From positions 1-21,181 of IMG/VR virus record IMGVR_UViG_3300037119_004555: a DNA stretch of 21,181 nt. One strand, written 5' to 3'. The DNA comes from a virus. The position numbers and the translations under genes are program-made. This document shows positions 341 to 20,318 of the stretch, piece by piece; the first letter of the stretch is position 1, and every line of letters begins with the position of its first letter. A model generated the notes under the pieces. It did no database searches and was not told the origin of the DNA. It saw only the letters and a list, made by a program, of their open reading frames with translations.

Positions 341-2539
341 ATGAAAGATGACAAAGAGGCCTTAGAGGGCCGCAAGCATACTCTGAAGGGCGAGATACCT
401 GAAGCGCCCCTACGCGACCAAATTCCTAAAAAGCTAGCCAAGCAGCTTGGTGCGCTTAATGTTGCGTCGATAGTTACAAATACCTGGAACGCCGGCAACG
501 CTAATCGCGCGAAGCGCTTAAAGACCCAGCGTGAACTATTGCAAGAATTCGAAGAATTTATTGAGCCTATCTATGATGCGCCTTACAGCTGGAGCTCCAC
601 CTTACACCTTCCAGTAGCGTACACCATTTGTCGTACATTCCATTCACGCATGAACGCCGCCCTCATGAGCCAAGATCCACCTTTTACTGTGATGGCGCGT
701 AAAGAAGCCAACATGGACCGTGCGCCACTCGTACAAGATTTAATGCGTTACTCCACTAAAGAGTGGGCCAATGAACATACCGGCATCGAAGAAGTTGTAG
801 ATCGTTGGATCTGGAACTGGGTGACCGGCGGTCGTGGCATCGTTAAGTATCGTTGGGAACAAAAGTATTCACGCTTCATAGATGTAGTTCAGGTTCAGAA
901 GCCAGGCCCAACACAATTCGTAGTAGACGAGCAGGGCATGGAACAAGCACAGCCAACACTCAAGATGGTTGATGAAGAGCAAGAAGTAGTAATCCCTTGC
1001 TTCGTCGGCCCGAGCGTCGAGCTAGTTCAGGAAGAAGATTTACTTATCGTTGGCGGCGACGGCGACGTCGACAAAGCCGACTCCGTGATCCACCAACAGT
1101 TCCTCACCGCAAGCGAATTGTGGACACTATCTGACAAAGGTATCTTTGATGAAGAGGCAGTAAAGCAGGTAATCGGCGGCGGCGCTGACATGCTCTCAAG
1201 CGACGTTACAGGCATGAACAAGATGGAGCGTAATTCGATTAGCGGCAACGGTAGCTTAGATGTGCCGTACGATTTAGACAGGTACCGCGTCCTTGAAGCT
1301 TACGTTCGTATGGACGTCGACGGCTCTGGTATTAATTCAGATATTATCGTTTGGGTCGCTGCGAATTCGCGCGCTCTGCTGCGTGCTACTTATTTATTTA
1401 GAGTTAGTAAATCAGGTAAACGACCATTTGCTTGCATCGACTTTCACAGACGCACAGGCACAGAGAATCCAGTTGGCCTAGTTGAATTAACATATTCGTT
1501 AACAAAAGAAATAGATGCTATGCACAACATGAAGGTCGACTTCGGCCTCATGACTACTATGCCATTCGGTTTTTATCGCGCCTCTAGTTCTATGGCACAA
1601 GAGCGTATACCGTTCGAGCCCGGCGCTCTCATCCCTGTAGATAATCCACAGGCTGATGTGTACTTTCCTAATTTAGGAAGTAGGACAGCGTTTGGTTTCC
1701 AGGAAGAAGCAGCACTTTATTCTTACATTGAACGCATGACCTCAGTGAGCGACATGTCTTTAGGCGTGTTAGGCGCTCAGGGTGCCGCGCGAACAGCGTC
1801 TGGCGCTCGCATCGTCAACTCAGAATCCAACACCAACTTAGACATATACCTCAAACGCTTAAACAGGGGCTTCCGAAAGCTCTTACATGGCGTTTTCGAG
1901 ATGTTACAAGAGCGAGTCGAGCCTGGAATGCAATTTAGGCTTTTCGGTGACGACGGCCAAAATTACTGGAAAACAGTACGTTCTAGAGAGGAAATTGCTG
2001 GAAGTTTCGATTTTGAATTAGAGCCAAGCTCTGCAAACAGCAATAAGCAGATCCAAGTAGATACTGCTCAGCAGATTTACCAACTTGTACAGAATCCTTT
2101 AGCAATTCAGTTAGGCATTGTTACTCCAAACGAATTCTACGCAGCACTAAAAAATTATTTACAAACTATTGGCGTAAAAGATTTTAGTAAGTTTGTTAAA
2201 AAACCTGAAGGCTTCTCTAGATTGTTTAGTCCTGAGGAAATTGCGAATCGTATTTTAGCTGGCATCGACATCAAGCTCGGACCTGAGCAAGATTTGGAAG
2301 GCTTCGTAAACTACGTGGAGTACTTGTTCACGCACGACGAAATTTTAGGAACCATCAATGAAGAGCAAACTGTATCGCTTGCACGCAAAATGAAAGAAGC
2401 GCAGCAAATGATGAAGGCTCTGCAAGAGATGGCAGCCCAGCAAGCAAACGCACAACAAATGCAAAACAACGCTCAAATGAGCCAACAGCAAACAGCCCCA
2501 GCAGCCGCTAACCCAGCGGTCACTGGCGGCGCAGCTTAA
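341..2539 (+). CDS. portal protein
   Basis: This 732-aa protein has the size and layout of podovirus portal proteins, which form the dodecameric ring at the capsid vertex through which DNA is packaged and ejected. Family-like features include an N-terminal helical segment, a middle part with SSTLHLPVAYTICRTFHSRM and PLVQDLMRYSTKEW, and the stretch SLTKEIDAMHNMKVDFGLMT. The region around residues 455-510 is Gly- and Ser-rich (MSLGVLGAQGAARTASGARI), as seen in P22-like portals. The last 60 or so residues are Gln-, Met- and Ala-rich and probably helical, like a portal barrel or flexible tail. The gene lies between the terminase-like fragment and the scaffold, as expected. The start ATG follows a GGGGAACGGA stretch that could serve as ribosome binding site. 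The call rests on recognition by eye and gene order. Confidence 0.85.
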   Translation: MKDDKEALEGRKHTLKGEIPEAPLRDQIPKKLAKQLGALNVASIVTNTWNAGNANRAKRLKTQRELLQEFEEFIEPIYDAPYSWSSTLHLPVAYTICRTFHSRMNAALMSQDPPFTVMARKEANMDRAPLVQDLMRYSTKEWANEHTGIEEVVDRWIWNWVTGGRGIVKYRWEQKYSRFIDVVQVQKPGPTQFVVDEQGMEQAQPTLKMVDEEQEVVIPCFVGPSVELVQEEDLLIVGGDGDVDKADSVIHQQFLTASELWTLSDKGIFDEEAVKQVIGGGADMLSSDVTGMNKMERNSISGNGSLDVPYDLDRYRVLEAYVRMDVDGSGINSDIIVWVAANSRALLRATYLFRVSKSGKRPFACIDFHRRTGTENPVGLVELTYSLTKEIDAMHNMKVDFGLMTTMPFGFYRASSSMAQERIPFEPGALIPVDNPQADVYFPNLGSRTAFGFQEEAALYSYIERMTSVSDMSLGVLGAQGAARTASGARIVNSESNTNLDIYLKRLNRGFRKLLHGVFEMLQERVEPGMQFRLFGDDGQNYWKTVRSREEIAGSFDFELEPSSANSNKQIQVDTAQQIYQLVQNPLAIQLGIVTPNEFYAALKNYLQTIGVKDFSKFVKKPEGFSRLFSPEEIANRILAGIDIKLGPEQDLEGFVNYVEYLFTHDEILGTINEEQTVSLARKMKEAQQMMKALQEMAAQQANAQQMQNNAQMSQQQTAPAAANPAVTGGAA

Positions 2540-4636: not shown

Positions 4637-5560
4637 ATGTCAGCACCAGTTTTTGTAAGAGCAAATTATGGCGATCTTTTTGGCTCAACGATGCTTCCAG
4701 TTTTGGAAGAAGTTTTTTGGAGCGAACTGCAACGAGCAGGTAATAACCGAGAAAAGATCTTTAAAACAGTAAGCACTGATCGAGATATTTACCAATCAAC
4801 AGAGATGCATGATTTGCCTCTCTTCTCAGAAATCGCGGAAGGCACTGATTATTCATACAGCCGTCCTCGTCAAGGAAACGATAAGACTATGACCGTATTG
4901 AAATACGGACTGGGCTTCTCAATTTCTGAAGAGGCAGTTGATGATGGTAAGTTCGATTTCATCGCGGACGCTGTTAGAAAGATGGCACGCTCTGGAAAAG
5001 AAAGCCAAGAAATTTCTGGAATGAACGTACTTAACAACGGTTTTTCTACTGCCACTGTTGCAGATGGATTGGCCCTGTTTCACGTAGCTCACTTGTTGCC
5101 ATCAGGACTTACTTTCCGAAATCGCGCAAGCACAGACGTTGATCTTTCTCCTGCAAATTTAGATTCAGCTCTTCAGGATTTTGACACTCAATTTATTGGC
5201 GATACTGGCATAATCTATGCTTCTAAAGCTAAAAAATTAGTCGTGCATCCCTCTAATTATCGATATGCAAAAGAGATCATAGGATCTGACCTTAAAGCAG
5301 ATAGCATGGACAACAACATGAACTCTCTGGCTTCTGAGGGCATCCAAGTCATCTCTTCTCCGCACATCACTGATTCTGATTCTTGGTTCTTGCTTGGTGA
5401 TTCTAGCGAAACTGGACTTCGTATTATCTCTCGTAAACCAATGGAAACAAAAAGTGACGAATCTTTTGACAACGACGCTATCAAGTACAAATCACGATAT
5501 AGAGAAGTTGTTGGAGCAGTTCACGCATTAGCAGCTTGGGGCACCTCAGGCGGGGCGTAA
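4637..5560 (+). CDS. major capsid protein
   Basis: This 307-aa protein has the length and motif order of HK97-fold capsid proteins of the Mu gpT-like type. The N-terminal arm has FGSTMLPVLEEVFWSELQ. A middle part has MTVLKYGLGFSISEEAVDDG, and the region GLALFHVAHLLPSGLTFRN resembles the conserved loop in which the new coat gene product is processed or folded. Near residue 205 the HPSNYRYAKEII block is characteristic of this group. The C-terminus has KYKSRYREVVGAVHALAAWG. Its position after scaffold and decoration genes and its good Shine-Dalgarno (AGGAG at 4623-4627) support the call. No separate maturation protease is seen in the window. A co-chaperonin gene on the other strand may assist its folding (inference). 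Confidence 0.85.
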   Translation: MSAPVFVRANYGDLFGSTMLPVLEEVFWSELQRAGNNREKIFKTVSTDRDIYQSTEMHDLPLFSEIAEGTDYSYSRPRQGNDKTMTVLKYGLGFSISEEAVDDGKFDFIADAVRKMARSGKESQEISGMNVLNNGFSTATVADGLALFHVAHLLPSGLTFRNRASTDVDLSPANLDSALQDFDTQFIGDTGIIYASKAKKLVVHPSNYRYAKEIIGSDLKADSMDNNMNSLASEGIQVISSPHITDSDSWFLLGDSSETGLRIISRKPMETKSDESFDNDAIKYKSRYREVVGAVHALAAWGTSGGA

Positions 5561-5562
5561 TC

Positions 5563-5961
5563 ATGTCTACTACGATCTCAAGGATTACCTGTGCTGGCTT
5601 GACCAACACAGGCACTCTTGTGCAAACAGGAGCTGTATCTTTTGGAGCAGTCACCGCAGCCACTAGCTTAGCAGTCGGTGGCGGTACAGCTATTACAAAG
5701 ATACTTAAAGGCACCGTTTCAGTTACGGTTGCAGCAGGCTTAGCAGCTGCTGAAGAGGACATCTCAGTTACCATCGCTGGCTTAGGTGTCACTGATGTAA
5801 TTGTTTTAACTCCCCTAAATGCGGGCATGGAAACTGGCGTTGCAATCGTTGGAGCTTGGTGTTCAGTCGCAGGCACAATGAAGATTCGCATTTCCAATGT
5901 TCATACTAGTACTTTGACTGGCAGCACTTCCCTTTGGAACTACTGCGTAATTCAGAGTTAA
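5563..5961 (+). CDS. small beta-rich virion protein, paralogue 1
   Basis: This 132-aa protein is read from ATG 5563, two bases after the capsid stop, with AGGCGGGG as ribosome binding site. The upstream in-frame extension to 5536 overlaps the capsid gene and was rejected. It is rich in Val, Thr, Ala and Gly. It ends with the pattern LTPLNAGMETGVAIVGAWCS, then MKIRISN, then WNYCVIQS. Short proteins of this pattern occur in structural cassettes of many tailed phages and are probably all-beta virion components. The next gene is a clear paralogue along its full length. Decoration or tail-surface location is inferred. Confidence 0.75.
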   Translation: MSTTISRITCAGLTNTGTLVQTGAVSFGAVTAATSLAVGGGTAITKILKGTVSVTVAAGLAAAEEDISVTIAGLGVTDVIVLTPLNAGMETGVAIVGAWCSVAGTMKIRISNVHTSTLTGSTSLWNYCVIQS

Positions 5962-5966
5962 TTAGT

Positions 5967-6374
5967 ATGTCTACTACAAGATCTAGAATTACCTGTGCAG
6001 GCGTTACTAATACGGGAACGCTTGTGCAAACAGGCGCTGCTGCACTTCCGGGCACTGTCGCGGCAACAACTAGTATTGCTGTAGGCACTAGTGGAACAGC
6101 TATTACAAAAATGATTAAAGGAATTGTCGAAGTTACTTTAGCTGCAACCGCAGCTGACGCAGAAGAAACAGTTCAAGTAACGATCACTGGAGCAGGCACT
6201 ACAGATGCGCTTCGAATCACTCCGCTCGATGCTGCAATGGAAACAGGAGTAGCTGTTGTAGCTGCATGGGTATCCGCAGCTGATACAGTGAAAATTAGAG
6301 TCTCAAATAGAAATGCCGTAAGCGCCCTCAACGGGTCTACAGCAAATTGGAATTACTGTCTTATACAAAGTTAA
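5967..6374 (+). CDS. small beta-rich virion protein, paralogue 2
   Basis: This 135-aa protein starts at ATG 5967, five bases after its paralogue. The two share the N-terminal pattern MSTTxSRITCAGxTNTGTLV, the TAITKxxKG segment, TPLxAxMETGVA, KIRxSN and the ending WNYCxIQS. The DNA has diverged at many third positions, so the duplication is not recent. The second copy lacks Cys in the GAWCS segment (AAWVS instead). Both may form mixed oligomers on the particle, or one copy may have specialised. There is no enzyme motif. The start context lacks a strong Shine-Dalgarno, so coupling to the upstream stop is likely. Confidence 0.75.
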   Translation: MSTTRSRITCAGVTNTGTLVQTGAAALPGTVAATTSIAVGTSGTAITKMIKGIVEVTLAATAADAEETVQVTITGAGTTDALRITPLDAAMETGVAVVAAWVSAADTVKIRVSNRNAVSALNGSTANWNYCLIQS

Positions 6375-6390
6375 TGGAGTGGTTTAAATT

Positions 6391-6657
6391 ATGGCTAACG
6401 GTAGAGGCGCAAATGTATATTATGTCGACACAGACAATACAACTATTGCTGGCCCAATTCATATCACTGCAATCAAGTATGTAGGCGCGTCTAGCGGCAC
6501 TGCAAATATTAAAGCTGATTCTGATAGCGGCACTATACTCTGGTCTGAAGCAAGTGATACTAATACTTTTAACCAAGTAAATATTCGAACCAATACAAGC
6601 CTCTATGTAAATCTAGCAAATAACGCAGTCATCATCATCTATACCGCTACGAAATAA
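6391..6657 (+). CDS. small probable virion protein
   Basis: This 88-aa protein starts with MANGRGANVYYVDTD and is made of alternating hydrophobic and polar stretches consistent with a small beta-sandwich. GGAG near 6377 precedes the start at ordinary spacing. It has a YVDT element and a C-terminal NNAVIIIYTATK strand that recall the next gene, suggesting distant kinship. No enzyme motif is present. Its place in a run of four small beta-rich genes between capsid and adaptor suggests a virion surface or filler role, which is inference. Confidence 0.65.
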   Translation: MANGRGANVYYVDTDNTTIAGPIHITAIKYVGASSGTANIKADSDSGTILWSEASDTNTFNQVNIRTNTSLYVNLANNAVIIIYTATK

Positions 6658-6669
6658 CGGCGGTGAACA

Positions 6670-6975
6670 ATGGCCAACGCCGTACAATCTAGCTCAGCTT
6701 ACGTAGACACTGCAGGCCTCATTTATACAGGCCGAGTAAAAATAGCCCACATCGTATTTACACCTGACGCCGCTTTCGACGCCCTAGTTCTCCGAGATGG
6801 ATTAACTAATGGTGGAGTCCTAAAACTCTCAATCAAAGCCGCAGTAGCAAAAGACGCTATCCATATTGATTTAAGCACATGTCCAATACAGTTCCAAGAC
6901 GGCGTTTATGCTTCTGTAATTACCGCTGGAGCAATTGCAACCGTTGTATTCACACAACGTGGGGAGGCTGCATAA
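6670..6975 (+). CDS. small probable virion protein
   Basis: This 101-aa protein begins MANAVQSSSAYVDTAG. It contains KIAHIVFTPDAAFDALVLRD and ends with IATVVFTQRGEAA. The layout is a compact beta-rich fold with short loops, as often seen in small virion proteins of aquatic phages. The weak ribosome binding site GGTGA lies at 6662-6666. Its last codons contain GGGGAGG, which acts as the Shine-Dalgarno of the adaptor gene that follows one base later, so translation of the two is probably coupled. The exact role is unknown. Confidence 0.65.
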   Translation: MANAVQSSSAYVDTAGLIYTGRVKIAHIVFTPDAAFDALVLRDGLTNGGVLKLSIKAAVAKDAIHIDLSTCPIQFQDGVYASVITAGAIATVVFTQRGEAA

Positions 6976-6976
6976 C

Positions 6977-9841
6977 ATGTCAGCATATCAACTCACGGAT
7001 TTTTCCGACATTTATACCGCGATCCTAGAAGAGCTTAAAGTACAAGCTTCAGATACGAATACGCTTAATAGAATAAAGCGTATGATTAATATGATCTATA
7101 TTGATGAAGTCGTTCCAGCGAATCGTTGGTATTGGCTTTATGGCAACACTTCAATTACACACAAGGCTTACTACACTGGCGGCACCGTAGCAGTCACGCC
7201 AGGCTCAACAACAGCAACTATCTCTGTGGCCCCAACAAGTGCTTACGGCGATAGCGGTAGCTTTTTAAATCATAGCTTCTCTGTTGATGGCACTAACGAA
7301 GTTTACAAAATCACCGCACACACTGCGCTCGCAACAACATTTACAATCGATCAAGAATTTAATGGTGTGCTAGCGACCGCTGCCGGCTTTAAGATTTGGA
7401 AAGATTCGATACCACTTCCAACGGATTGCCGTGAAACCATAGAGGCTTGGCATGATTTTAAAAGTTCTCCAATGGACGGCTTTGGCTTACAGGAAATGCG
7501 CAAGCTTATGGCTAGCCAGCCTAAAGCCGAAGGCCGCCCATATTGCTATTCAACTTATGATTACTTTGATCCTTCAAGCGGTGACGATGAAACCGAGAGC
7601 GATCGTTATAGAGTATTCAAAGTATACCCGGCCATCTCGACCCTTTCGACCATCGTTAAGGTTGATTACGTAAAAGAAGTTGCAGCATTAGAGAATTCTG
7701 GCGACGAGCCCTTAATGCCAATAGAAGATAGGATAGTACTCTTTTATGGCGCTTTATCCCTTGCATGGGGTAGCATAAACAGGAACCCAGAAGAGGCAGC
7801 AAGAAATCGCCAACTCTTTGAAGCGAAGCTTGCTCGCATGATGGCTAAAGTCCAAGATTCAATGGATAAGCCTCGCTTAGAGCCTGCATCTACTTATGTA
7901 GTAGCAAAGCGTGGTCCTCGCATCTCCAGAGGGGCTAGAGGCTCTGGCAATTTTGCTGGTGGACAAAGTTCTTACTCAGCACCCTCTTATTTAAGTGGTG
8001 TAACAATTAACGGCGCGCTGCTTACAGGCAATGTTACAGCAAACTCTGGAGTAACTATTGATGGGCGCGATCTGTCTATCGACGGCGCAGCAAATGATGC
8101 TCATATTGCAGCATCTACGAATGTTCATGGGCTGACTGGTGGAGCCTCCGTTGTTGGCGATACACAGACGCAAACACTTACTAATAAAACAATTGCAGCA
8201 GGCAGTAACACTATTACAGGGCTCACTAATACTGCTATCAGTGCAAGTGCAGCGATTGCTTACTCTAAATTAAATTTAGCACTCTCTATTTTAAATGCCG
8301 ACATTAGCGCCAGTGCTGCGATTGCATATTCTAAGCTTGCTCTTACAGGCGCGATCTTAAATGCTGATTTAGCAGGCTCAATTGCATACTCGAAATTATC
8401 CCTCACAGGGGCAATATTGAATGCTGACCTTGCTGGCTCTATTGCATATAGTAAACTCTCGCTTACTGGTGCAATTTTAAATGCCGACATTAGTGCCAGT
8501 GCTGCGATTGCATATTCTAAGCTTGCTCTTACGGGCGCGATCTTAAATGCTGATTTAGCAGGCTCAATAGCACTAACAAAACTTGCAGCAACTACTGTTT
8601 CACGAGCCTTAGTATCAGACGGCTCTGGTGTAATTACCCCAGCAACTACCACAGCAGTTGAGATTGGTTACGTAAATGGAGTAACTTCAGCAATCCAAAC
8701 ACAAATGAATTTAAAAGCGCCCCTCGCAGGGCCAACATTCACAGGCACCGTAACAACGCCGGTAACGGCCTCACGCGCGTTAGTAACCGGAGCTAGCTCG
8801 GAGTTAGCTGCAGCAACCACAACAGCAACAGAAATCGGTTATGTAAATGGCGTTACTTCCGCAATCCAGACGCAGCTAAATACACTCGCTGTTTATACAC
8901 CATACTATTTAGGAAATCTTGGTCTTGCATGCTCTGTTTCTGGAAACGCATTAACAATTGCGCTTAAACAAGCGGATGGCTCCACAAATCCTGCGAGTGG
9001 GTCCGGCGCTGTTAAAGTAGCCTTTCGCTCAAGCACACTCACAGACGGTCTCTATAATATCCGCTCTATCACAGGGGCATTAAGCGTTGTTGTGTCCTCA
9101 GGTTCAACTTTAGGTCATAAAAGCGCGACGGCCCACAATATTTATGTTTACCTAGTAGATAATTCAGGCACGCCAGAGCTAGCAGTTTCAACAACACTTT
9201 ATAAAGAAAACAGATTTATCACTACAGTTGCCGAAGGTGGAGCAGGTGCTGCGGACACTAACAACATAGTCTACTCGACTACGGCACGCTCTTCACAACC
9301 ACACAGGCTTATTGCTGTGTTAATTTCGACACAAACAACTGCAGGTACTTGGGCCGCGGTGCCGACGACAACACATATTGGGCTAGTTGACATGCAAACA
9401 ATTGAGACTGTTGGAATGCGTGCAACAAGCGCTTCAACAACTCTCACTTATAATACTGAAGTTGTTGCAGTGAATGGAACCGTTTCTTTCGACACACACA
9501 ACGCATATAACTCTAGTACAGGCGTTTGGACCTGTCCAGTGGCGGGTAAATATGCAATTTCTGCGCAAATATTCTCAACTACAGCAATTACACCAGTCGT
9601 GGCTAGATCATTTACTATATTAGTTTACAAAGACGCTGGCGCTATTAGCCGAAGCGGTTTAGCGATCCAAGCGACGGGTGCAGCGGCAGCTTGGCGAGCT
9701 ACTGTTAATGATGTCGCACAACTTTCTGCAGGGGAAACCATCTCAATTAAAGGCTTTGGGGCTCTTGATGCCTCGACTGCCAATGTCCTTTCAGGAAATG
9801 CGATTGATAATTATTTAAGCATCATGAAGATTGGTGATTAA
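6977..9841 (+). CDS. tail adaptor fused to repeat fibre with C1q-like tip
   Basis: The start is ATG 6977 after GGAGG at 6963-6967, giving 954 aa; an upstream in-frame ATG at 6935 overlaps the preceding gene and was rejected. Residues 1-315 look like a head-to-tail adaptor of the P22 gp4/T7 gp11 kind: helical start, a beta insertion, then VKVDYVKEVA and a C-terminal helix near EDRIVLFYGALSLAWGSINR. Residues 335-640 are a fibre. Six SKL-type repeats of 20-22 aa (about 418-540) carry AILNADLAGSIAYSKL or ISASAAIAYSKL. Two copies of a TEIGYVNGVTSAIQTQ unit follow (542-635). Residues 812-954 resemble a C1q/TNF jelly roll, with VSFDTHNAYNSSTGVWTCPV and AGKYAISAQ. The fibre may let the adaptor ring carry receptor-binding arms directly. 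The fold of the tip is inferred. Confidence 0.75.
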   Translation: MSAYQLTDFSDIYTAILEELKVQASDTNTLNRIKRMINMIYIDEVVPANRWYWLYGNTSITHKAYYTGGTVAVTPGSTTATISVAPTSAYGDSGSFLNHSFSVDGTNEVYKITAHTALATTFTIDQEFNGVLATAAGFKIWKDSIPLPTDCRETIEAWHDFKSSPMDGFGLQEMRKLMASQPKAEGRPYCYSTYDYFDPSSGDDETESDRYRVFKVYPAISTLSTIVKVDYVKEVAALENSGDEPLMPIEDRIVLFYGALSLAWGSINRNPEEAARNRQLFEAKLARMMAKVQDSMDKPRLEPASTYVVAKRGPRISRGARGSGNFAGGQSSYSAPSYLSGVTINGALLTGNVTANSGVTIDGRDLSIDGAANDAHIAASTNVHGLTGGASVVGDTQTQTLTNKTIAAGSNTITGLTNTAISASAAIAYSKLNLALSILNADISASAAIAYSKLALTGAILNADLAGSIAYSKLSLTGAILNADLAGSIAYSKLSLTGAILNADISASAAIAYSKLALTGAILNADLAGSIALTKLAATTVSRALVSDGSGVITPATTTAVEIGYVNGVTSAIQTQMNLKAPLAGPTFTGTVTTPVTASRALVTGASSELAAATTTATEIGYVNGVTSAIQTQLNTLAVYTPYYLGNLGLACSVSGNALTIALKQADGSTNPASGSGAVKVAFRSSTLTDGLYNIRSITGALSVVVSSGSTLGHKSATAHNIYVYLVDNSGTPELAVSTTLYKENRFITTVAEGGAGAADTNNIVYSTTARSSQPHRLIAVLISTQTTAGTWAAVPTTTHIGLVDMQTIETVGMRATSASTTLTYNTEVVAVNGTVSFDTHNAYNSSTGVWTCPVAGKYAISAQIFSTTAITPVVARSFTILVYKDAGAISRSGLAIQATGAAAAWRATVNDVAQLSAGETISIKGFGALDASTANVLSGNAIDNYLSIMKIGD
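8228..8597 (+). repeat. intragenic fibre repeats (six units)
   Basis: Six units of 60-66 bases encode repeats of the NAD[L/I]...SIAYSKL...TGAIL pattern. Units 2 and 5 and the sequences after them form a near-identical direct repeat: 8288-8382 matches 8474-8568 over 95 bases with two differences by eye. Units 3 and 4 encode almost the same peptide with different codons. The mixture points to both old and recent duplication. Recombination between the copies would change fibre length by 62 residues in frame. Confidence 0.85.
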
Positions 9842-11679
9842 TGCCAAGACGCACGCAAGTATTTCAACAGCTTCCTTGGACAGGTGGTATTAACACTTCT
9901 GTCGATAGTGGGGTAATCCCACCAAATGATTTAGTTAAAGCTGAGAATATAGTATTTACTACAAGTGGTGTAAGAAGGAAACGAGAAGGCAGAACCTACT
10001 TTGATGCCCTTAGTGACATTCCAGCAGTCACACACAGAAGTTCTAGTGGTACTACTCGTACACTTAAATTTGCTGCCGCCGTCACCGACGCTACAGTAGA
10101 TAAGCTTTTTGTTGGCGAAGGCATTAATGTAACGACCACAACAACAAGTGGTAATGAATACACTTACTATCAAGTAACCGCCGGCACAGTTGCCGCCATA
10201 ACGACAACAACGATCACCGACGACTCAATCACTTACACTGCAGTCGGCTCGCTCACTGAAACCTCTACTGCAACGACAACCTGCACAGTAGCGCGCGCTT
10301 ACCCAATTGTTAAACTCGTAGACTATTGGCGCTGGACCGGATCGGCGTTAGCCCAACGAATTGTTGGAATAACTTCACAGCCTAAAATAGTTCGTTACGA
10401 TTCTAGTGGCAACCGAAAAGAGATTACTAAAGACAGCGGTGCTACTGCTCGTGTGGGAACCTCCACGAAAGTTTGTAGCGTCGTGTTCAACGAACGCCTT
10501 ATAGTGGCACAAACTCGAACAGGTAACGTGCCCTCGAAATATTACCCAGAAAGCGACACTGATTGGGTAGACTTAGGCGGAACTCCACCAGACTTCTCTA
10601 TCTGCGCAGTCCACTTAAACAGAGTTTGGACTAACGATAAAGCAAACAAAGATCGTTTACACTATTCAGCAACAGCCAATGCCGAGAAGTGGAATGGAGC
10701 AGACGATTCGGGCGCTCTAGATATTCGTCCCGGTGATGGTGATCCGACCGGAATTTCCAGCATATTCGCATTCAAAGGCCGCATCTTTGTAAGTAAACAA
10801 AATAAGATCTACCAAGTTGTTGGTGACTCACCGGAGAACTTTCAGATATTAGATGTCTCTCAAGGCATTGGTTGTATCGCGCAGGATGCAGTAGCAGCAC
10901 TAGATCAAGACGATGTTTACTATGTTTCAAAGCGTGGTGTACACTCTATCGGCGCAACTGCCAGCTTCGGCGACTTCGAAGGCCAATATCTAAGCACCAA
11001 AATACAACCTTCATTTAATGACTGGCTCCCAAGTAGGCTTGAATTTACAAAGACGCTTTATATCCCGTTCCTAAACTCAGTCGCCTTCGCCGTCTCTGAA
11101 GTTGATACGAGCGCGCCCGATATTGTTTGGCTTTATAACATCATAAATAAAGAATGGTATCAATGGCCAGACTTAGCTGCTACAGCTATGACTAATGCGT
11201 TATTCACATCAGTAAACACCTTATTAATAGCTACAAATAGCGGCAAGATAGTAAAAGCGCAAAATGGAACCTTCGTTGACTATACTAATGAAGCAATCCC
11301 CTACTATATAAAATCAGGCACCATTTATCCTGATAATAACGTGCTCACACTTAAAAATTTTAAGCGCGTCACTATATTCTTTAAGCCTCGCGCAGGATAC
11401 TCCCTGTCCGTAATAGCTAAAATAGATACGCATTCTGCCCAAACGCTTACATTTACAGGCAGTTCAAGTGGTGATCTTTTAGGGGTGTCGTTTCATTTAG
11501 GAGTAAGTACTTTAGGGGCTGATACGTTCTTTGCCCCCTACACACTACCCATAGATGGTATTGGCCACGGTATCACACTTGAAGTGCGTCAGAGTGGTCT
11601 GGCCGAAGAGGGCGATATTTATGGCTATGCCATTGAGTGGGAGCCAGCGGAGTTCCCTCAAGAGACCGGCGACGAATAG
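9841..11679 (+). CDS. tail hub/DNA stabilisation protein, P22 gp10 or T7 gp12-like
   Basis: This 612-aa protein starts at ATG 9841, sharing one base with the preceding stop (TAATG), so translation is coupled. It begins RTQVFQQLPWTGGINTSVDSG and continues with NIVFTTSGVRRKREGRTYF, a typical opening of phage proteins forming the tail hub below the adaptor. The middle part carries WGA-type beta-propeller elements: NRVWTNDKANKDRLHYSAT, a D-rich GDPTGISSIFAFKGRIFVSK, and SKRGVHSIG. A Thr-rich insertion lies at about residues 60-150, and the end is beta-rich. Its place straight after the adaptor matches P22 and T7-like gene order. Specific assignment to gp10 or gp12 cannot be made by eye. Confidence 0.75.
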   Translation: MPRRTQVFQQLPWTGGINTSVDSGVIPPNDLVKAENIVFTTSGVRRKREGRTYFDALSDIPAVTHRSSSGTTRTLKFAAAVTDATVDKLFVGEGINVTTTTTSGNEYTYYQVTAGTVAAITTTTITDDSITYTAVGSLTETSTATTTCTVARAYPIVKLVDYWRWTGSALAQRIVGITSQPKIVRYDSSGNRKEITKDSGATARVGTSTKVCSVVFNERLIVAQTRTGNVPSKYYPESDTDWVDLGGTPPDFSICAVHLNRVWTNDKANKDRLHYSATANAEKWNGADDSGALDIRPGDGDPTGISSIFAFKGRIFVSKQNKIYQVVGDSPENFQILDVSQGIGCIAQDAVAALDQDDVYYVSKRGVHSIGATASFGDFEGQYLSTKIQPSFNDWLPSRLEFTKTLYIPFLNSVAFAVSEVDTSAPDIVWLYNIINKEWYQWPDLAATAMTNALFTSVNTLLIATNSGKIVKAQNGTFVDYTNEAIPYYIKSGTIYPDNNVLTLKNFKRVTIFFKPRAGYSLSVIAKIDTHSAQTLTFTGSSSGDLLGVSFHLGVSTLGADTFFAPYTLPIDGIGHGITLEVRQSGLAEEGDIYGYAIEWEPAEFPQETGDE

Positions 11680-11692
11680 AGGCCGAAGGCCT
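11680..11692 (+). terminator. hairpin after the tail hub stop codon
   Basis: AGGCC (11680-11684) pairs with GGCCT (11688-11692) around GAA, extendable by a G-T and an A-T pair to seven pairs, and followed by TTTCC. It starts at the base after the stop codon. It is the most terminator-like of the three hairpins of this kind, but the T run is only three bases beyond the stem. Confidence 0.35.
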
Positions 11693-11746
11693 TTCCATAG
11701 GCTATAATTGGTGCAGCCGGCGGGTATGCGCGAGGTCTAGAAGGGA
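11680..11746 (+). promoter_or_regulatory. intergenic regulatory region before the second fibre gene
   Basis: After the hairpin come CTTTCCA (11691-11697) and a perfect TATAAT (11703-11708). GC-rich CAGCCGGCGGG, then GAGG and AAGGGA, precede ATG 11747. A -10 box without a recognisable -35 box at the proper spacing suggests either an activator-dependent promoter or a phage-specific element. The similarity to the gaps before the portal and capsid genes strengthens the regulatory reading. Confidence 0.42.
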
Positions 11747-12526
11747 ATGTCACAAATAGATATCAGACGAACATATGCGGACACAGTAACACTTTTTGCC
11801 GCTGATTTAGATGCAATCCTAGATGATGTTGAGTCGTTTTTAAACTCTACGAAATTAAACGACGACAATATACAGGACGCAGGCATCACAGCCTCTACTA
11901 AAATCATCGACTCTACAATTACGACGGCCAAGATTGCTACGAATGCTATCACCACAGTTAAAATTACCGATGCTAACGTTACTCGCTTAAAATTAGAAGC
12001 GGTAGAACGAACTCCTGTAGGCGCTGTACTGGCATATGCAGGCACAAGTGCTCCAACTGGCTGGCTCCTTTGTGAGGGGGCGGCAGTCAGCCGCGTTACC
12101 TACGCAACGCTTTTTGGAATAATCGGCGTTACACACGGACAAGGCAACGGCACCACTACTTTTAACGTCCCTGATTACAAAGGCATGTTTCTTCGTGGAC
12201 GCGCAAACTCAAGTGCTAATGATCCAGACAGAGCAACCCGGGTAGCTATGGCTACTGGGGGCGTGACTGGCGATAATGTTGGATCTACTCAAGGAAGCGC
12301 CTACGCATCTCACTTTCACTCTATCGTAGATCCTGGTCATAAGCATCAGCAGGATGGAGCCGCTTACGGCGTTGCTACTGGTAGCGATGCTGCTGGCCGC
12401 GTTTGGAATACGGGCGACACTGACGATACTACTACAAATACAACTGGGATTACAGGCACTGATACTTCTGGAGCCAATGAGACACGACCTATAAACGCTT
12501 ACGTACAATATATTATAAAATACTAA
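11747..12526 (+). CDS. tail fibre protein with phage tail collar domain
   Basis: In this 259-aa protein, residues 1-85 form an N-terminal shaft or attachment part with Thr/Ile repeats (STKIIDSTITTAKIATNAIT). Residues 90-153 form a tail collar domain: VGAVLAYAGTSAPTGWLLCE, then FNVPDYKGMFLRG. Two HxH pairs, H189/H191 and H198/H200, resemble the metal-binding histidines of T4 gp12- and lambda Stf-like receptor-binding tips. The ending ANETRPINAYVQYIIKY is typical of the family. Possible ribosome binding sites are GAGG at 11732-11735 and AGAAGGGA just before ATG. This is a second fibre besides the adaptor fusion. Trimer formation is expected from the family. Confidence 0.85.
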   Translation: MSQIDIRRTYADTVTLFAADLDAILDDVESFLNSTKLNDDNIQDAGITASTKIIDSTITTAKIATNAITTVKITDANVTRLKLEAVERTPVGAVLAYAGTSAPTGWLLCEGAAVSRVTYATLFGIIGVTHGQGNGTTTFNVPDYKGMFLRGRANSSANDPDRATRVAMATGGVTGDNVGSTQGSAYASHFHSIVDPGHKHQQDGAAYGVATGSDAAGRVWNTGDTDDTTTNTTGITGTDTSGANETRPINAYVQYIIKY

Positions 12527-12529
12527 AAA

Positions 12530-12868
12530 ATGATCGAAAAAAGCTTATATGGACAATACATTTTAGAACGCGAAGGGAAGCAGATTATTGAGCGCCCCGA
12601 AGGATTTGCTACGTATTTTTATACAAACGACATGTGTTACGTCGAGAATGTTTACGTCGCACCAGAGTTTAGACGAACTAAAATTGGCCGCGAATTACTT
12701 GAGAAGGCCGCCTCCGAGGCCAAGCTAAGAGGCATTAAAAAGCTTTTAGTTACTGTCAGGCCCAGCGCCAATGGTTCAACGACCTCCTTGAAAGCGGTGA
12801 CTGCATGTGGATTCACGCTTCAAAGCGCTGCTAACGATGCAATCTTTTTCGTTAAGGAAATAAATTAA
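12530..12868 (+). CDS. GNAT-family N-acetyltransferase-like protein
   Basis: This 112-aa protein has a GNAT core: a beta4-alpha3 motif A with CYVENVYVAPEFRRTKIGRE and LLEKAASEAKLRGIKKLLV (residues about 36-75), then a C-terminal GFTLQSAANDAIFFVKEIN strand. The pyrophosphate-binding signature R/QxxGxG/A appears as RRTKIG, so its first Gly is Lys; acetyl-CoA binding may be weak or changed. No clear Shine-Dalgarno precedes ATG 12530, three bases after the fibre stop, so coupling is likely. GNAT-like proteins occur at the T7 gp13 internal-virion position in several podoviruses, which fits this place before internal protein genes. Substrate is unknown. Confidence 0.75.
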   Translation: MIEKSLYGQYILEREGKQIIERPEGFATYFYTNDMCYVENVYVAPEFRRTKIGRELLEKAASEAKLRGIKKLLVTVRPSANGSTTSLKAVTACGFTLQSAANDAIFFVKEIN

Positions 12869-13717
12869 ATGGGCGCTATACTAGATCCTTTCACAGCAAA
12901 AGATCAAACACGCGCTGATGGCACTTCAGGAAGGGAGATTACGCCAGAGAGTGAGTTTGAGCGTATGCTACGTGAGCGCAATCAAGGCCAGTACGGAGAC
13001 ATGAATAAGTTTTTACAAGCTGGCATTGACCCAAATGCAATGTCGAACGCTGCAGGTACCGATCGCGGGCTAGCAGATATGCTTCGTCAATACTCGCAAA
13101 CAGGTGGTCAGCCAAACACGCAAGATTGGAATAATGCTAATGAGTTTGCATCACAAGCATTTGCTCCACAGCAATTACAAATGAACTACGACTTTGATCA
13201 ACAGAATATACAAGCCAAGCAGATGGCTGCGAAGATGGGTCGAAGCGCAAATGATCCACAAATACAAGCACAACTAGCACAGCAGCAATCACAGATGGCT
13301 GGGCAACTAAACCAAGCTCAATCACAGTATGCCTCTAACTTTGCACTCGCACAACCTCGTCAACGTCTAGGCTACACTTCACAGCTTGCTGACGTAAATC
13401 GTTCACGCGCCTCAATGGCCATGCAGAACCAGCAAACAATGCTCGGCATGAGTTCACAGAATTTGGGAATGGAGCGTGATTGGCGCCTTCAAACTGGCGG
13501 ACGTTTTGGCTCACAAGTACAGGAAAGCGGCGGCGGACTTAAAGGCGCTTTAACAGGCTTCATGGGTGTCGCAAGCACAGCGCTTGGTGGATACTCAGCG
13601 TTTAGTGGTGGCGGCAAGCCCCAGCAACAACAAGGCTATGGCCCAATGGCCGGCGGACCTATGGATAACATGGGCCCCCCTGGGTATGGACCAACTCGAG
13701 GTACAATGTATGGGTGA
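12869..13717 (+). CDS. internal virion/ejection protein, paralogue 1
   Basis: This 282-aa protein is rich in Gln, Met, Gly and Ala. The N-terminus has EITPESEFERMLRERNQGQY. A helical core follows with LADMLRQYSQTGGQP and long Gln/Met helices (QMNYDFDQQNIQAKQMAAKM). A Gly-rich end (residues about 218-282) may be membrane-active or disordered: GALTGFMGVASTALGGYSAF and a PQQQQGYGPMAGGP tail. The composition fits podovirus ejection proteins that leave the head with the DNA. AAGGAAA lies nine bases before ATG. The next gene is a full-length paralogue. Role inferred from composition and position. Confidence 0.65.
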   Translation: MGAILDPFTAKDQTRADGTSGREITPESEFERMLRERNQGQYGDMNKFLQAGIDPNAMSNAAGTDRGLADMLRQYSQTGGQPNTQDWNNANEFASQAFAPQQLQMNYDFDQQNIQAKQMAAKMGRSANDPQIQAQLAQQQSQMAGQLNQAQSQYASNFALAQPRQRLGYTSQLADVNRSRASMAMQNQQTMLGMSSQNLGMERDWRLQTGGRFGSQVQESGGGLKGALTGFMGVASTALGGYSAFSGGGKPQQQQGYGPMAGGPMDNMGPPGYGPTRGTMYG

Positions 13718-14549
13718 TGTAGGTAAAGCAGTAGGCGGCTTCTATGGCGCCAGTGTTGGCGGTGTCGCAGGACTTCCTGGAATGTTCGCAGGCGCAGACT
13801 TCGGTAGCGGCGGCGGCCTAGGCTTCAGCGACCCCGACAAAACAGAGAATCGACAATACTCTGGTTATAACTTAGCTCCAGAGAGTGACTTTGAGAAGCA
13901 ACTTCGCGGCAACATAGACAGCCAATATAAAGGTATGGAAGGCTTAGTAAACCAAGGGCCTGGCATGTTCGATGTCCAGGATTCACGAAATAGCTCACAA
14001 GCACTTGCAACTATGCTTCAGCAGTACTCGCAAAATGGCGGCAGGCCAATGCAGTCTGATTTAAGCGAGGCTAACTCGTACGCTCAACAAGTGATGCAAC
14101 CGCAGATGGTGGCAGCACAAGAGCAGTATAGACAGCAAGGCCAAGGTGCCTTAGCACTAGCTGATCAATTGGGCCGACCAGGCAGCGATCCAATATTACA
14201 AAATAAAATGAGTCAGTACCAAGGCCACAGCACAGCAATGATGCAAGCACAGCAAGGCGCTATAGGCGCGCAGTACGCTCAGCAATTACCAGGACAGCGC
14301 ATAGGCTACATGCAAGATGCAAACGCCATCAAAGGGCAACTAGCGATGCAAGCGATGTCTAATCGTCAAGCGCTTCTAGGCTTAGGCTCACAGTTGCAAA
14401 ATCAAGAGCGTGAGTGGCGTAAGACTACTGCTAACAAATGGAGTACGCAAACTGGTGAGAGTGGTGGTGGACCACTGGCTGCATTAGGTATGGGTGCCGC
14501 AATGACTGGAACAGTATTTAAAGGACTATCTGCCTTTGGCGGAGGATAA
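13710..14549 (+). CDS. internal virion/ejection protein, paralogue 2
   Basis: The start is taken as ATG 13710 (MGDVGKAVGGFYGASVGG): GAGG lies at 13699-13702 at good spacing, and the ATG overlaps the previous stop by eight bases. Upstream in-frame codons to 13566 fall inside the preceding gene and were rejected. The 279-aa product aligns with paralogue 1 by eye: APESDFEKQLRG matches TPESEFERMLRE, LATMLQQYSQNGGRP matches LADMLRQYSQTGGQP, and EREWRKTTANKWSTQTGESG matches ERDWRLQTGG...QESGGG. It carries an N-terminal Gly-rich hydrophobic stretch that paralogue 1 lacks. Both could form a mixed channel during ejection, which is inference. Confidence 0.65.
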   Translation: MGDVGKAVGGFYGASVGGVAGLPGMFAGADFGSGGGLGFSDPDKTENRQYSGYNLAPESDFEKQLRGNIDSQYKGMEGLVNQGPGMFDVQDSRNSSQALATMLQQYSQNGGRPMQSDLSEANSYAQQVMQPQMVAAQEQYRQQGQGALALADQLGRPGSDPILQNKMSQYQGHSTAMMQAQQGAIGAQYAQQLPGQRIGYMQDANAIKGQLAMQAMSNRQALLGLGSQLQNQEREWRKTTANKWSTQTGESGGGPLAALGMGAAMTGTVFKGLSAFGGG

Positions 14550-17856: not shown

Positions 17857-17998
17857 CTGCTTGATACCAAAGTCTACAGTTATAGTTTCCAACTGCGCTT
17901 CTATCATGAGGATGCACAGCAGAGCTTACGTAAAGCTCCATAAAGTAGCTTTGTATTTCAGCTAAGTCTGCTGTAGAAAGCTCCTTCGCCTCTTTCAT
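17819..17998 (-). CDS. small hypothetical protein (59 aa)
   Basis: The gene reads from ATG 17998 to TGA 17819. Its start overlaps the co-chaperonin stop as ATGA, a strong sign of translational coupling. The product is MKEAKELSTADLAEIQSYFM, then a middle with SSAVHPHDRSAVGNYNCRLW, and the end YQAVMRFLSNTSQQE. It is helical, soluble and has one Cys and two His. No family was recognised. Its 3' end overlaps the 3' end of the holin candidate on the other strand by 38 bases. That makes this the meeting point of two converging transcription units, with no intergenic terminator between them. Confidence 0.7.
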   Translation of the reverse strand: MKEAKELSTADLAEIQSYFMELYVSSAVHPHDRSAVGNYNCRLWYQAVMRFLSNTSQQE

Positions 17999-18417
17999 AA
18001 CTCTAATGCCTTAATGTATGAAGAGAAAGCGTCTTTAGAATCAAAAACAAACTGCACGTCGCCTTCGGTTGTTAGGCCGACTTTGCTACCGCTGTAGCCT
18101 GCGACTCCGGGAAGCGTCGATAAGTACTGCACACCTAAGCTATTAAGCACTACTAAGTTACCGACTTTAACATCGAGAGGCTGGTACTTGTCGCTGTCGG
18201 CGTCGTAATACCCTTCGCCAACTGCTAGCACGTAACCAACATGGGGCTTTTGAATTCGTAGATCCTCTCTGACGTTTGCAGCATTCCCTAATAGTAAGCC
18301 GCCCTTAGTTTTAATTTCGCCAAGTTCTACCCGCTCAATTAATAACTTATTACCCATTAACTTAAAGTGCTTGTTAGCCTTCTTAAAGTTCTGGTCGTAC
18401 TCTAATTTAATTTCCAT
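17995..18417 (-). CDS. GroES/gp31-like co-chaperonin
   Basis: This 140-aa protein matches the GroES (Cpn10) fold order: GNKLLIERVELGEIKTKGG (residues about 22-40) corresponds to the first strand and the roof of the mobile loop. GGLLLGNAAN (39-48) corresponds to the GroEL-binding GGIVL segment of the loop. HVGYVLAVGEGYYDADSDKY then QPLDVKVGNLVVLN correspond to the GEVLAVG...PLDVKVGD strands. The C-terminus is longer than GroES (97 aa), and a 20-residue N-terminal extension precedes Met21. T4 gp31 is likewise a larger variant needed to fold the T4 capsid protein. Here the partner is inferred to be host GroEL and the client may be the 307-aa capsid protein. CAGGAG precedes the ATG, which overlaps the upstream stop by 11 bases. 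Confidence 0.82.
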   Translation of the reverse strand: MEIKLEYDQNFKKANKHFKLMGNKLLIERVELGEIKTKGGLLLGNAANVREDLRIQKPHVGYVLAVGEGYYDADSDKYQPLDVKVGNLVVLNSLGVQYLSTLPGVAGYSGSKVGLTTEGDVQFVFDSKDAFSSYIKALEL

Positions 18418-18830: not shown

Positions 18831-19214
18831 CTAGTACCTCCAACGCCGATCAACTAGATCGAGTGTGCAATATTCCTTATTCCAATTTACAATATATCTA
18901 CGGTTTAGTTCTGATGTGACTTCGTTGACGATGCGATTAAAGGGTGCATCATGTGGGTGCCAAAACTTGGCCCCGCCCTCGGAAGCAATTTGCCCAGCCG
19001 ACATCAGGCGCTCTACGTATCCTAGCTCAACATTAAAGAAGAACTTATTTAAGTACTTATAAACATCCTCTAAAGAAAGGTCTATATCTTGATGGCCGTC
19101 CTTCTTACTAAGTTCATAGTAGTTAACAAGAAGGGGCAGCATAGTTATGAGCCCCAATCTTACTTCTTTATCTTTTTTAACTTTTAAATCTTTGCGATTA
19201 ACTGCTGCAGCCAT
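18831..19214 (-). CDS. hypothetical protein (127 aa)
   Basis: This 127-aa soluble protein was not assigned to a family. It begins with a basic segment, MAAAVNRKDLKVKKDKEVRL, then a hydrophobic stretch GLITMLPLLVNYYELSKKDG. A helical middle follows with LEDVYKYLNKFFFNVELGYV. The C-terminus is Arg/Trp-rich (NRRYIVNWNKEY...DRRWRY) and could bind nucleic acid. The ATG at 19214 shares its T with the preceding stop (TAATG overlap). The gene ends two bases before the next start, so co-transcription is very likely. Its neighbours are a beta-rich protein and a membrane protein. No cysteine motif or catalytic signature is visible. Confidence 0.6.
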   Translation of the reverse strand: MAAAVNRKDLKVKKDKEVRLGLITMLPLLVNYYELSKKDGHQDIDLSLEDVYKYLNKFFFNVELGYVERLMSAGQIASEGGAKFWHPHDAPFNRIVNEVTSELNRRYIVNWNKEYCTLDLVDRRWRY

Positions 19215-19642
19215 TATCCCTGTTTGAGCGCTTTGATTCTATCTGCTACACTCGCGCCTGCCGTGGCTTGGTTAATCGGAGTAAGCGTGTTAACGCCAAC
19301 ATTATTGTCGCTATACACGTCTGCAAAGTCTTGCTCTACAGTAAATTTAGTAGAGAGCTTGCCGCCGGAAAGGGCGTCAGCGATACGAGTAATCTTTGTA
19401 TTTGGGCCATCAGTTTTAATCTTGCCGTCTTTAAGTAACCATTTAACGTTGCCAGCAACACTTACTGAAACGCGCTTGCCTTCGATTCGCATAATCAGCG
19501 ACAGTGCACCTGGTGCTCGAACGTGTTTAGATTCATCCACGCCTACTGCGTAGCCTGTAATTGATTCGCCTACTTTAAGTCCTGTAAGCTTTTTAAATCC
19601 GCCTTCGAATCCGGCGTCTTTACTGATATCGGTAAAAGCCAT
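19214..19642 (-). CDS. beta-rich hypothetical protein, possible OB-fold
   Basis: The start is the internal ATG 19642, because AAGGAGG (19652-19658) lies nine bases upstream at ideal spacing; the frame itself stays open back through the HNH domain. The 142-aa product begins MAFTDISKDAGFEGGFKKLT. It has alternating strands: KVGESITGYAVGVDES, ALSLIMRIEGKRVSVSVAGN, VKWLLKDGKI, STKFTVEQDFADV. It ends in ASVADRIKALKQG. The small beta-barrel-like pattern and the acidic-to-basic tail are reminiscent of phage single-strand DNA-binding proteins, but no family match is certain. It ends by overlapping the next ATG by one base. It may also be made as the C-terminal part of an HNH fusion. Confidence 0.6.
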   Translation of the reverse strand: MAFTDISKDAGFEGGFKKLTGLKVGESITGYAVGVDESKHVRAPGALSLIMRIEGKRVSVSVAGNVKWLLKDGKIKTDGPNTKITRIADALSGGKLSTKFTVEQDFADVYSDNNVGVNTLTPINQATAGASVADRIKALKQG

Positions 19643-19645
19643 GTG

Positions 19646-20185
19646 CTTTTGCCTCCTTTTATGTTTATTGTCTTGGCGTGATTGCCAAACGTATTTATTA
19701 TTGTTTGAGCCAGCCAACGACTGTGACTGGTTGATGTTTGCAGCGCCATCATATCGCAAAACGCGCAGTAAGTCAACTAAAAAGAGTGTTTCCTTTACTG
19801 TTAAATGAGAGCCTTTAAGCTTATTACATTGCTCACAGCAGGGGACACTATTCTTTAAAGAGTAGCCATAGCGGTTGTCCATTCTGTCTAGGCCGCTTCC
19901 AGTAGTGTAGCGATCATCTTTACAGTAATAACAGCAGGAGTCCTCTGTGAGGGCCTTATATTCCTTAAAGGTAATAGTGGCTGCTATGCCTCTGGTTTTA
20001 GCATTCTTAGTTAAAGTTCTGAAGCGGCTCTCTGGGGTATACTCTTTATGCTTTATACAGTAACCGGACTTACTACTTGCGGTTAAGGTTCTTTCGCACC
20101 TTGGGTATTTGCACTGATGTCCTTTTAAGGATGGCTGCCTTAACTTGCTCTGTTGTTTCTTCAACTGGAATGATCCCGCCAGCAT
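19646..20185 (-). CDS. HNH homing endonuclease-like domain
   Basis: The HNH-coding region runs in the frame 20185 to 19214 without a stop before the beta-rich gene; its end here is set at the junction. Counted from ATG 20185, an N-terminal zinc knuckle (C25, C30, C43, H46: CKYPRC...YCIKH) is followed by the nuclease core, with CC-YY-C (84-88), GLDRMDNRYGYSLKN, VPCCEQCN and KLKG. The pairs C85/C88 and C117/C120 form a zinc ribbon. In this subfamily DR replaces the usual DH, so the first catalytic His is not obvious. The start is uncertain: no Shine-Dalgarno precedes ATG 20185, and the frame overlaps the upstream gene by 113 bases. It cuts DNA in family terms; the target is unknown. It may be free-standing or fused to the 142-aa protein. 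Confidence 0.75.
19652..19658 (-). promoter_or_regulatory. Shine-Dalgarno deciding the start of the beta-rich gene
   Basis: The minus-strand sequence AAGGAGG lies nine bases before ATG 19642 and inside the open frame of the HNH gene. It is the strongest ribosome binding site in the minus-strand block and supports independent translation of the 142-aa protein. Confidence 0.75.
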
Positions 20186-20318
20186 TGGCAATTAGGAGTG
20201 TCGACTTGTGGGCATCTGAGTAGTAGAACGTGAATATGTTTGGTACGTAGACGACTATTGGTTGTTTAGTGTTTGCATGCATAAGCTCAATAAAGAGCGT
20301 GTAGGCTTCGCCTGTCAT
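20073..20318 (-). CDS. small hypothetical protein (81 aa)
   Basis: This 81-aa protein starts at ATG 20318, overlapping the upstream stop as ATGA. It has a strand-rich middle, PIVVYVPNIFTFYYSD and TLLIANAGGIIPVEET, followed by a helix TEQVKAAILK and a basic tail KVRKNLNRK. The order of strand, small loop, strand, Gly-Gly-Ile-x-Val-x-Glu, helix resembles small FlbD-like proteins common in phages, whose role is unclear. Its last 113 bases overlap the N-terminal HNH frame, so either the tail or the HNH start may be altered by the endonuclease insertion. Confidence 0.6.
   Translation of the reverse strand: MTGEAYTLFIELMHANTKQPIVVYVPNIFTFYYSDAHKSTLLIANAGGIIPVEETTEQVKAAILKRTSVQIPKVRKNLNRK

Follow-up and report, generated by a model that had tools for sequence, protein, structure and literature searches.

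A predicted podovirus head-tail adaptor continued on the same chain by a probable repeat fibre with a C1q-like tip

In a lineage of uncultured short-tailed phages, the protein identified here as the head-tail adaptor is continued on the same chain, behind the point at which free-standing adaptors end, by what we consider quite likely to be a tail fibre. The stretch of DNA analyzed (the window) is a virus record of 21,181 bases from a metagenome, the reads of which are not open to inspection. Its gene at 6977-9841 on the plus strand is a single open frame of 954 amino acids. The initial annotation had proposed that this one chain combines an adaptor, a shaft of SKL repeats, and a C1q-like tip, and that proposal is borne out by homology, by structure models, and by fifteen fused relatives.

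The plus strand of the window encodes the structural proteins of a short-tailed phage. A portal of the SU10 type (341..2539; Pfam SU10_portal, 5.1e-30) and a major capsid protein (4637..5560; Pfam Phage_capsid_4, 2.6e-19) come before the adaptor-fibre gene, whose ATG at 6977 is preceded by GGGGAGG, a good ribosome-binding stretch. The tail hub/nozzle gene (9841..11679, +), which is syntenic in relatives and 39% identical to a “phage stabilization protein” of phage MW202601, adjoins the adaptor-fibre gene with no separate fibre gene in between. It is followed by a separate short fibre that contains a Tail Collar domain (11747..12526, +; Pfam Collar, 1.7e-19; tail collar fibre phrog_523, 2e-31), the first 83 amino acids of which are kept beside the hub in relatives. 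Directly 3′ of this fibre lies a GNAT acetyltransferase (12530-12868, +; Pfam, 1.4e-10), a candidate modifier of fibre or host, and a GroES/Cpn10 homologue (17995-18417; Pfam, 7.7e-10; a co-chaperonin in PHROGs) is encoded on the opposite strand near the structural genes. The minus-strand frame at 19214-20191 resembles HNH endonuclease and Srd anti-sigma families, and part of it also matches a frame located between the portal and capsid genes in one relative, L030 (relatives are designated here by L numbers). Two overlapping frame pairs on the plus strand, at 5536-6374 and 12869-14549, have partners that match the same places in relatives, as if each pair were a tandem duplicate.

Residues 1-316 (6977..7924, +) are predicted to form a podovirus head-tail adaptor of the gp11 type, an identification made through structure and synteny only. 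Over residues 1-311, the domain is 40% identical to a free-standing protein of 311 amino acids, UOF79082.1, from MW202601, and the gene for that protein lies directly 5′ of the “phage stabilization protein” gene, the same position as in the window; in the window and in relatives, the adaptor gene is found between the capsid genes and the hub/nozzle gene. An AF2 model of residues 1-330, built with 18 relatives (pLDDT 84.4), consists of a four-helix bundle, a beta domain, and a C-terminal helix. Its top matches in the PDB are podovirus adaptors, with Z scores from 14.6 to about 8, including those of cyanophage A4 (14.6), Pseudomonas phage Pa223 (13.7), SU10 (13.6), GP4 (12.3), and T7 gp11 (10.9), and comparison with solved adaptors by Foldseek gives E values down to 4e-7. 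The domain is left unnamed by Pfam and by PHROGs, the best match being phrog_10775 (“tail protein,” E 0.0025), and no significant match was obtained when the adaptor alignment was used as a profile against PDB sequences. In T7, the C-terminal helix of gp11 embraces the portal stem beside the fibre dock (PMC6702177); in the model, a helix at residues 305-312 occupies the place along the chain expected for such an embracing helix, in a region with pLDDT 42-59, and is a candidate for this role on the portal.

Behind the adaptor, a Gly/Ser-rich linker (residues 317-338; 7925..7990, +) begins where free-standing relatives end, with pLDDT below 50 for model residues 317-330. This is followed by a start-of-shaft module (residues 339-415; 7991..8221, +; TINGA..TGNVT...GVTIDGRDLS...) that is kept behind the adaptor in fused relatives and whose motif, GVTIDGRD/GVTIDGVD, also opens the shaft in many unrelated, separate fibre-like proteins. 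The SKL-repeat shaft (residues 416-545; 8222..8611, +) contains six SKL/TKL copies in residues 430-534, and Tandem Repeats Finder reports a 60-bp unit in 4.5 copies at 8291-8572. The end of the shaft and the middle domain (residues 531-784; 8567..9328, +) are homologous to a separate fibre gene of L064. Because shaft and middle domain model poorly, with pLDDT mostly below 50, no fold is called for the middle domain (about residues 641-800). Phage tail fibres are characterized by a repeat shaft and an exchangeable distal tip, and both features are present here in the SKL repeats, the homology to the L064 fibre, and the exchange of tips described below.

The chain ends in a domain (residues about 806-954; 9392..9838, +) that is predicted from profile and fold matches to have the C1q/TNF jelly-roll fold. 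Taken alone, the window tip scores below the gathering threshold of Pfam C1q (19.2-20.1 bits against 23.7; E 0.0014), whereas six of the seven members of the tip alignment match that family, the best at 7.8e-9, and the profile of all seven identifies human C1q chains among PDB entries (1.3e-13). The C1q-like tip of the initial annotation is thus recovered by profile searches at the level of the tip family, with the single window sequence remaining sub-threshold. The tip model matches C1ql1 with a Z score of 18.4 and an rmsd of 1.7 Å over 123 residues, and C1q domains are its best PDB matches in Foldseek (E 1e-8).

A DNA search of deposited phage genomes found no close relative of the window, and a protein search of deposited phage genomes matched the adaptor only in MW202601 and MW202604, with weak matches for the shaft and middle domain; bacterial and archaeal genomes, searched for prophages, gave no match. 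When viral contigs were searched, with the adaptor alignment as one query and the linker as another, 25 distinct adaptor proteins were recovered, including that of the window. The comparison proposed at the outset as a way to tell a fixed fusion from a split one finds both states: a C-terminal extension begins at the same joint in 16 of the 25 (the window and fifteen from separate contigs, among which the extensions of L028 and L071 run off their contigs), and the remaining nine are free-standing proteins of about 310-400 amino acids that end at about the start of the linker, with gene order unchanged, but because the linker served as one query these counts give no estimate of the frequency of fusion. 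On the adaptor tree, fusion is a clustered trait, requiring three changes against 7.6 with shuffled labels, and the hypothesis that all fused forms make up one clade is rejected (p-AU 0.0013). In the simplest history, fusion was gained in one main event and later lost in L031, and a short extension that lacks a shaft arose separately in L019.

Other variations among the adaptors were also encountered. An insertion of about 80 residues occupies the same place in the adaptors of L023 (3634-4839) and L033 (40-1260), one of which is a free form and the other fused, and BFVD contains longer adaptor-like proteins, of 519-581 amino acids, that may represent insertions rather than fibre fusions. The record of L001, which is MW202601, is titled “Siphoviridae,” yet its adaptor and hub are of the podovirus type.

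The initial annotation correctly saw a fusion in the window but missed that it has two layers, as most relatives fuse only a short stub to the adaptor, with a separate fibre gene adjoining. In L064, the fused adaptor, made up of adaptor and stub, is 49% identical to window residues 1-414, and the separate fibre (5676-7358) is 58% identical to window residues 531-784 over 256 columns (E 3e-77). Because the L064 counterpart consists of two adjacent genes, the window gene is read as a double fusion that has taken in the fibre gene otherwise found, as a rule, between adaptor and hub. Compared with L064, the window lacks the small head of the first gene and the attachment end of the second; the gap between the two L064-like parts is filled by the SKL repeats, and the C1q tip replaces a Gly-rich tip. 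The join near residues 415-531 is seen in the window contig only. Among fused relatives whose contigs include the downstream side, 11 have a separate long gene, fibre-like or of another kind, between the fused adaptor and the hub or the end of the contig, and the fused proteins of these eleven have 428-828 amino acids. The hub follows the fused gene directly in the window and in L034, and in L026 only a 63-residue frame intervenes; these three genes, which have no separate fibre gene between them and the hub, encode the longest fused proteins (1535 amino acids in L034, 954 in the window, and 890 in L026). In a first step, the adaptor of the lineage may have acquired the start of a shaft and a small head, with a separate fibre gene retained behind it, and the window lineage may then have absorbed the separate fibre too, placing adaptor, shaft, and tip on one chain.

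Tips are exchanged among the fused relatives, which end in a small beta head, a Gly-rich tip, or a C1q domain. The same small beta head, of about 105 residues, ends the proteins of L018, L019, L025, L027, L029, L064, L066, and L073; a Gly-rich tip is found on L026 and C1q-like tips on L030 and the window. By adaptor sequence, L027 is the closest relative of the window (64% identity), and the two proteins are alike to about residue 432, yet they end in different heads. C1q-fold tips also end separate fibres in L009, L016, and L019. In L019, one separate fibre (10743-12659) carries three tandem C1q-like heads, and the small beta head ends three genes: the fused adaptor, the fibre next door, and a gene after the hub. 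The tip of L034 looks C1q-like by eye, but the tip profile gave no match and no such claim is made for it. The suggestion that the fusion could define a distinct receptor-binding design stands insofar as the architecture is lineage-wide and its tips are exchangeable; that those tips bind a receptor is a conjecture.

How such a chain might work can be sketched from known adaptors. The adaptor part would form a ring under the portal, in twelve copies if homology with SU10 and T7 is a guide. The flexible linker behind the C-terminal helix would let the fibre chains exit at the collar. The chains would then associate over the length of the shaft, in all likelihood as trimers, and expose the C1q-like knob to bind the host. 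The covalent fibre would take the place of the long fibre that in SU10 and T7 is a separate protein docked on the adaptor, with the collar-domain protein (11747-12526) serving as a second, short fibre at the hub. C1q-fold chains and phage fibre chains are usually trimers, and the mismatch between a twelve-fold ring and docked, separate fibre trimers, as in T7 and SU10, is a textbook problem of phage assembly. Twelve full-length chains associated as trimers would give four arms at most and so would clash with the six-fold hub; cleavage, mixed chains, and single arms are alternative answers to this clash. That twelve covalent chains leave the ring, either as four trimers that break the six-fold plan or as up to 12 single arms, can be proposed only tentatively, with the balance somewhat against it. 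The T7 adaptor places its C-terminus against the portal, near the capsid, and a similar placement here would require an exit path for about 600 residues, which counts against a fibre tethered in this way.

Other explanations of the single frame differ in what they ask of the sequence. An artefact of assembly or sequencing, in which two genes were joined by a lost stop or in a chimeric contig, would be in keeping with a metagenomic record of this length whose reads cannot be inspected and with the free-standing adaptors of relatives. The loss of a stop near residue 320 had been named from the beginning as the finding that would undo the fusion; the frame contains no stop there and stays open, and the same joint, together with a homologous linker, recurs in fifteen other contigs, which rules out a lost stop or chimera at the junction of adaptor and shaft. 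GC content is even across the joint, and no in-frame ATG, GTG, or TTG from which a separate fibre could start occurs between residues 296 and 481, so an artefact is highly improbable. The same stretch without start codons bears on the proposal that one chain is made and then cut, or that an internal start is used, with the result that adaptor and fibre would reach the virion as free proteins and in differing copy numbers, as they do in ordinary podoviruses. Such a scheme would solve the 12-against-3 stoichiometry, and an in-frame TTG at 8417 (residue 481), with an AGGGG stretch five bases upstream, could be put forward as the start; this site, however, lies inside the repeat rather than near the start of the shaft, a search near the joint for slippery heptamers of the simple X-XXY-YYZ type was negative, and no protease site was identified, leaving the scheme decidedly unlikely. 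A fibre translated separately from an internal start near the joint was rejected, as was a short adaptor released by frameshifting, given the lack of starts in residues 296-481 and of a slippery heptamer.

The role of the extension can also be read differently, as a stub resembling a collar or whisker, which would shield the neck or serve as the anchor of another fibre, with the collar-domain protein at 11747-12526 binding the host. Most fused relatives have only the small beta head with a separate fibre gene adjoining, and the collar-domain fibre after the hub is conserved, both in keeping with this reading. Many fused relatives have retained a separate fibre gene, so in those phages the chief receptor binder could be something other than the fused extension. 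In the window, however, the hub is not preceded by a separate fibre, and residues 531-784 correspond to the separate fibre of L064. Relatives also have separate fibres that terminate in a C1q fold, and exchange of the kind seen here is usual for tips that bind receptors. A stub is accordingly judged unlikely for the window, and a fibre continuing the adaptor chain is the reading retained.

Several known systems share parts of this arrangement. SU10, a Kuravirus, has a dodecameric adaptor to which six trimeric long fibres dock, and its short fibres bind the nozzle (PMC9509320). The window resembles it in adaptor fold (Z 13.6), SU10-type portal, adaptor-borne fibre, and second short fibre at the nozzle, but whereas gp11 and gp12/gp13 of SU10 are separate and associate non-covalently, the shaft and tip of the window continue the adaptor chain. 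T7 gp11 has the same adaptor fold (Z 10.9), with helix bundle, beta domain, and C-terminal helix; the gp17 fibre of T7, unlike that of the window, is the product of a separate gene and is bound between gp11 and gp12 (PMC6702177). The statement that adaptor and fibre are separate in model podoviruses is true of T7 and SU10, in which the adaptor and the fibre it carries are distinct polypeptides, as they are not in the window gene, and nine relatives likewise have a free adaptor. MW202601 (Manatee Spring phage, Caudoviricetes sp. ct7ZZ929) shares the order of portal, capsid, adaptor, and hub and an adaptor 40% identical to that of the window, but there the adaptor is free-standing at 311 amino acids. 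Fibres of extracellular contractile injection systems (PMC12923769), like those of L009, L016, and L019, bear a C1q fold at their ends, but in all of these the fibre has its own gene and is not part of an adaptor.

Each part of the window protein is therefore of a known kind, and what was not found described is the placement of adaptor and fibre on one chain as the trait of a lineage. No earlier description of such a fusion was found among the open-access papers searched, which is weak evidence of novelty as most subscription papers fall outside that search. For annotation, the finding is a warning that environmental phage proteins labeled “hypothetical” or “tail fibre” may carry an adaptor. 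With adaptor and fibre joined covalently, and with tips that recombine while the adaptor stays fixed, the lineage could serve as a natural experiment on what sets fibre number and symmetry and on how a signal of fibre binding passes from the adaptor to the hub. If fibres are indeed built from the ring itself, the ring would set their number, and a separate step of fibre attachment would be absent from the assembly of these phages.
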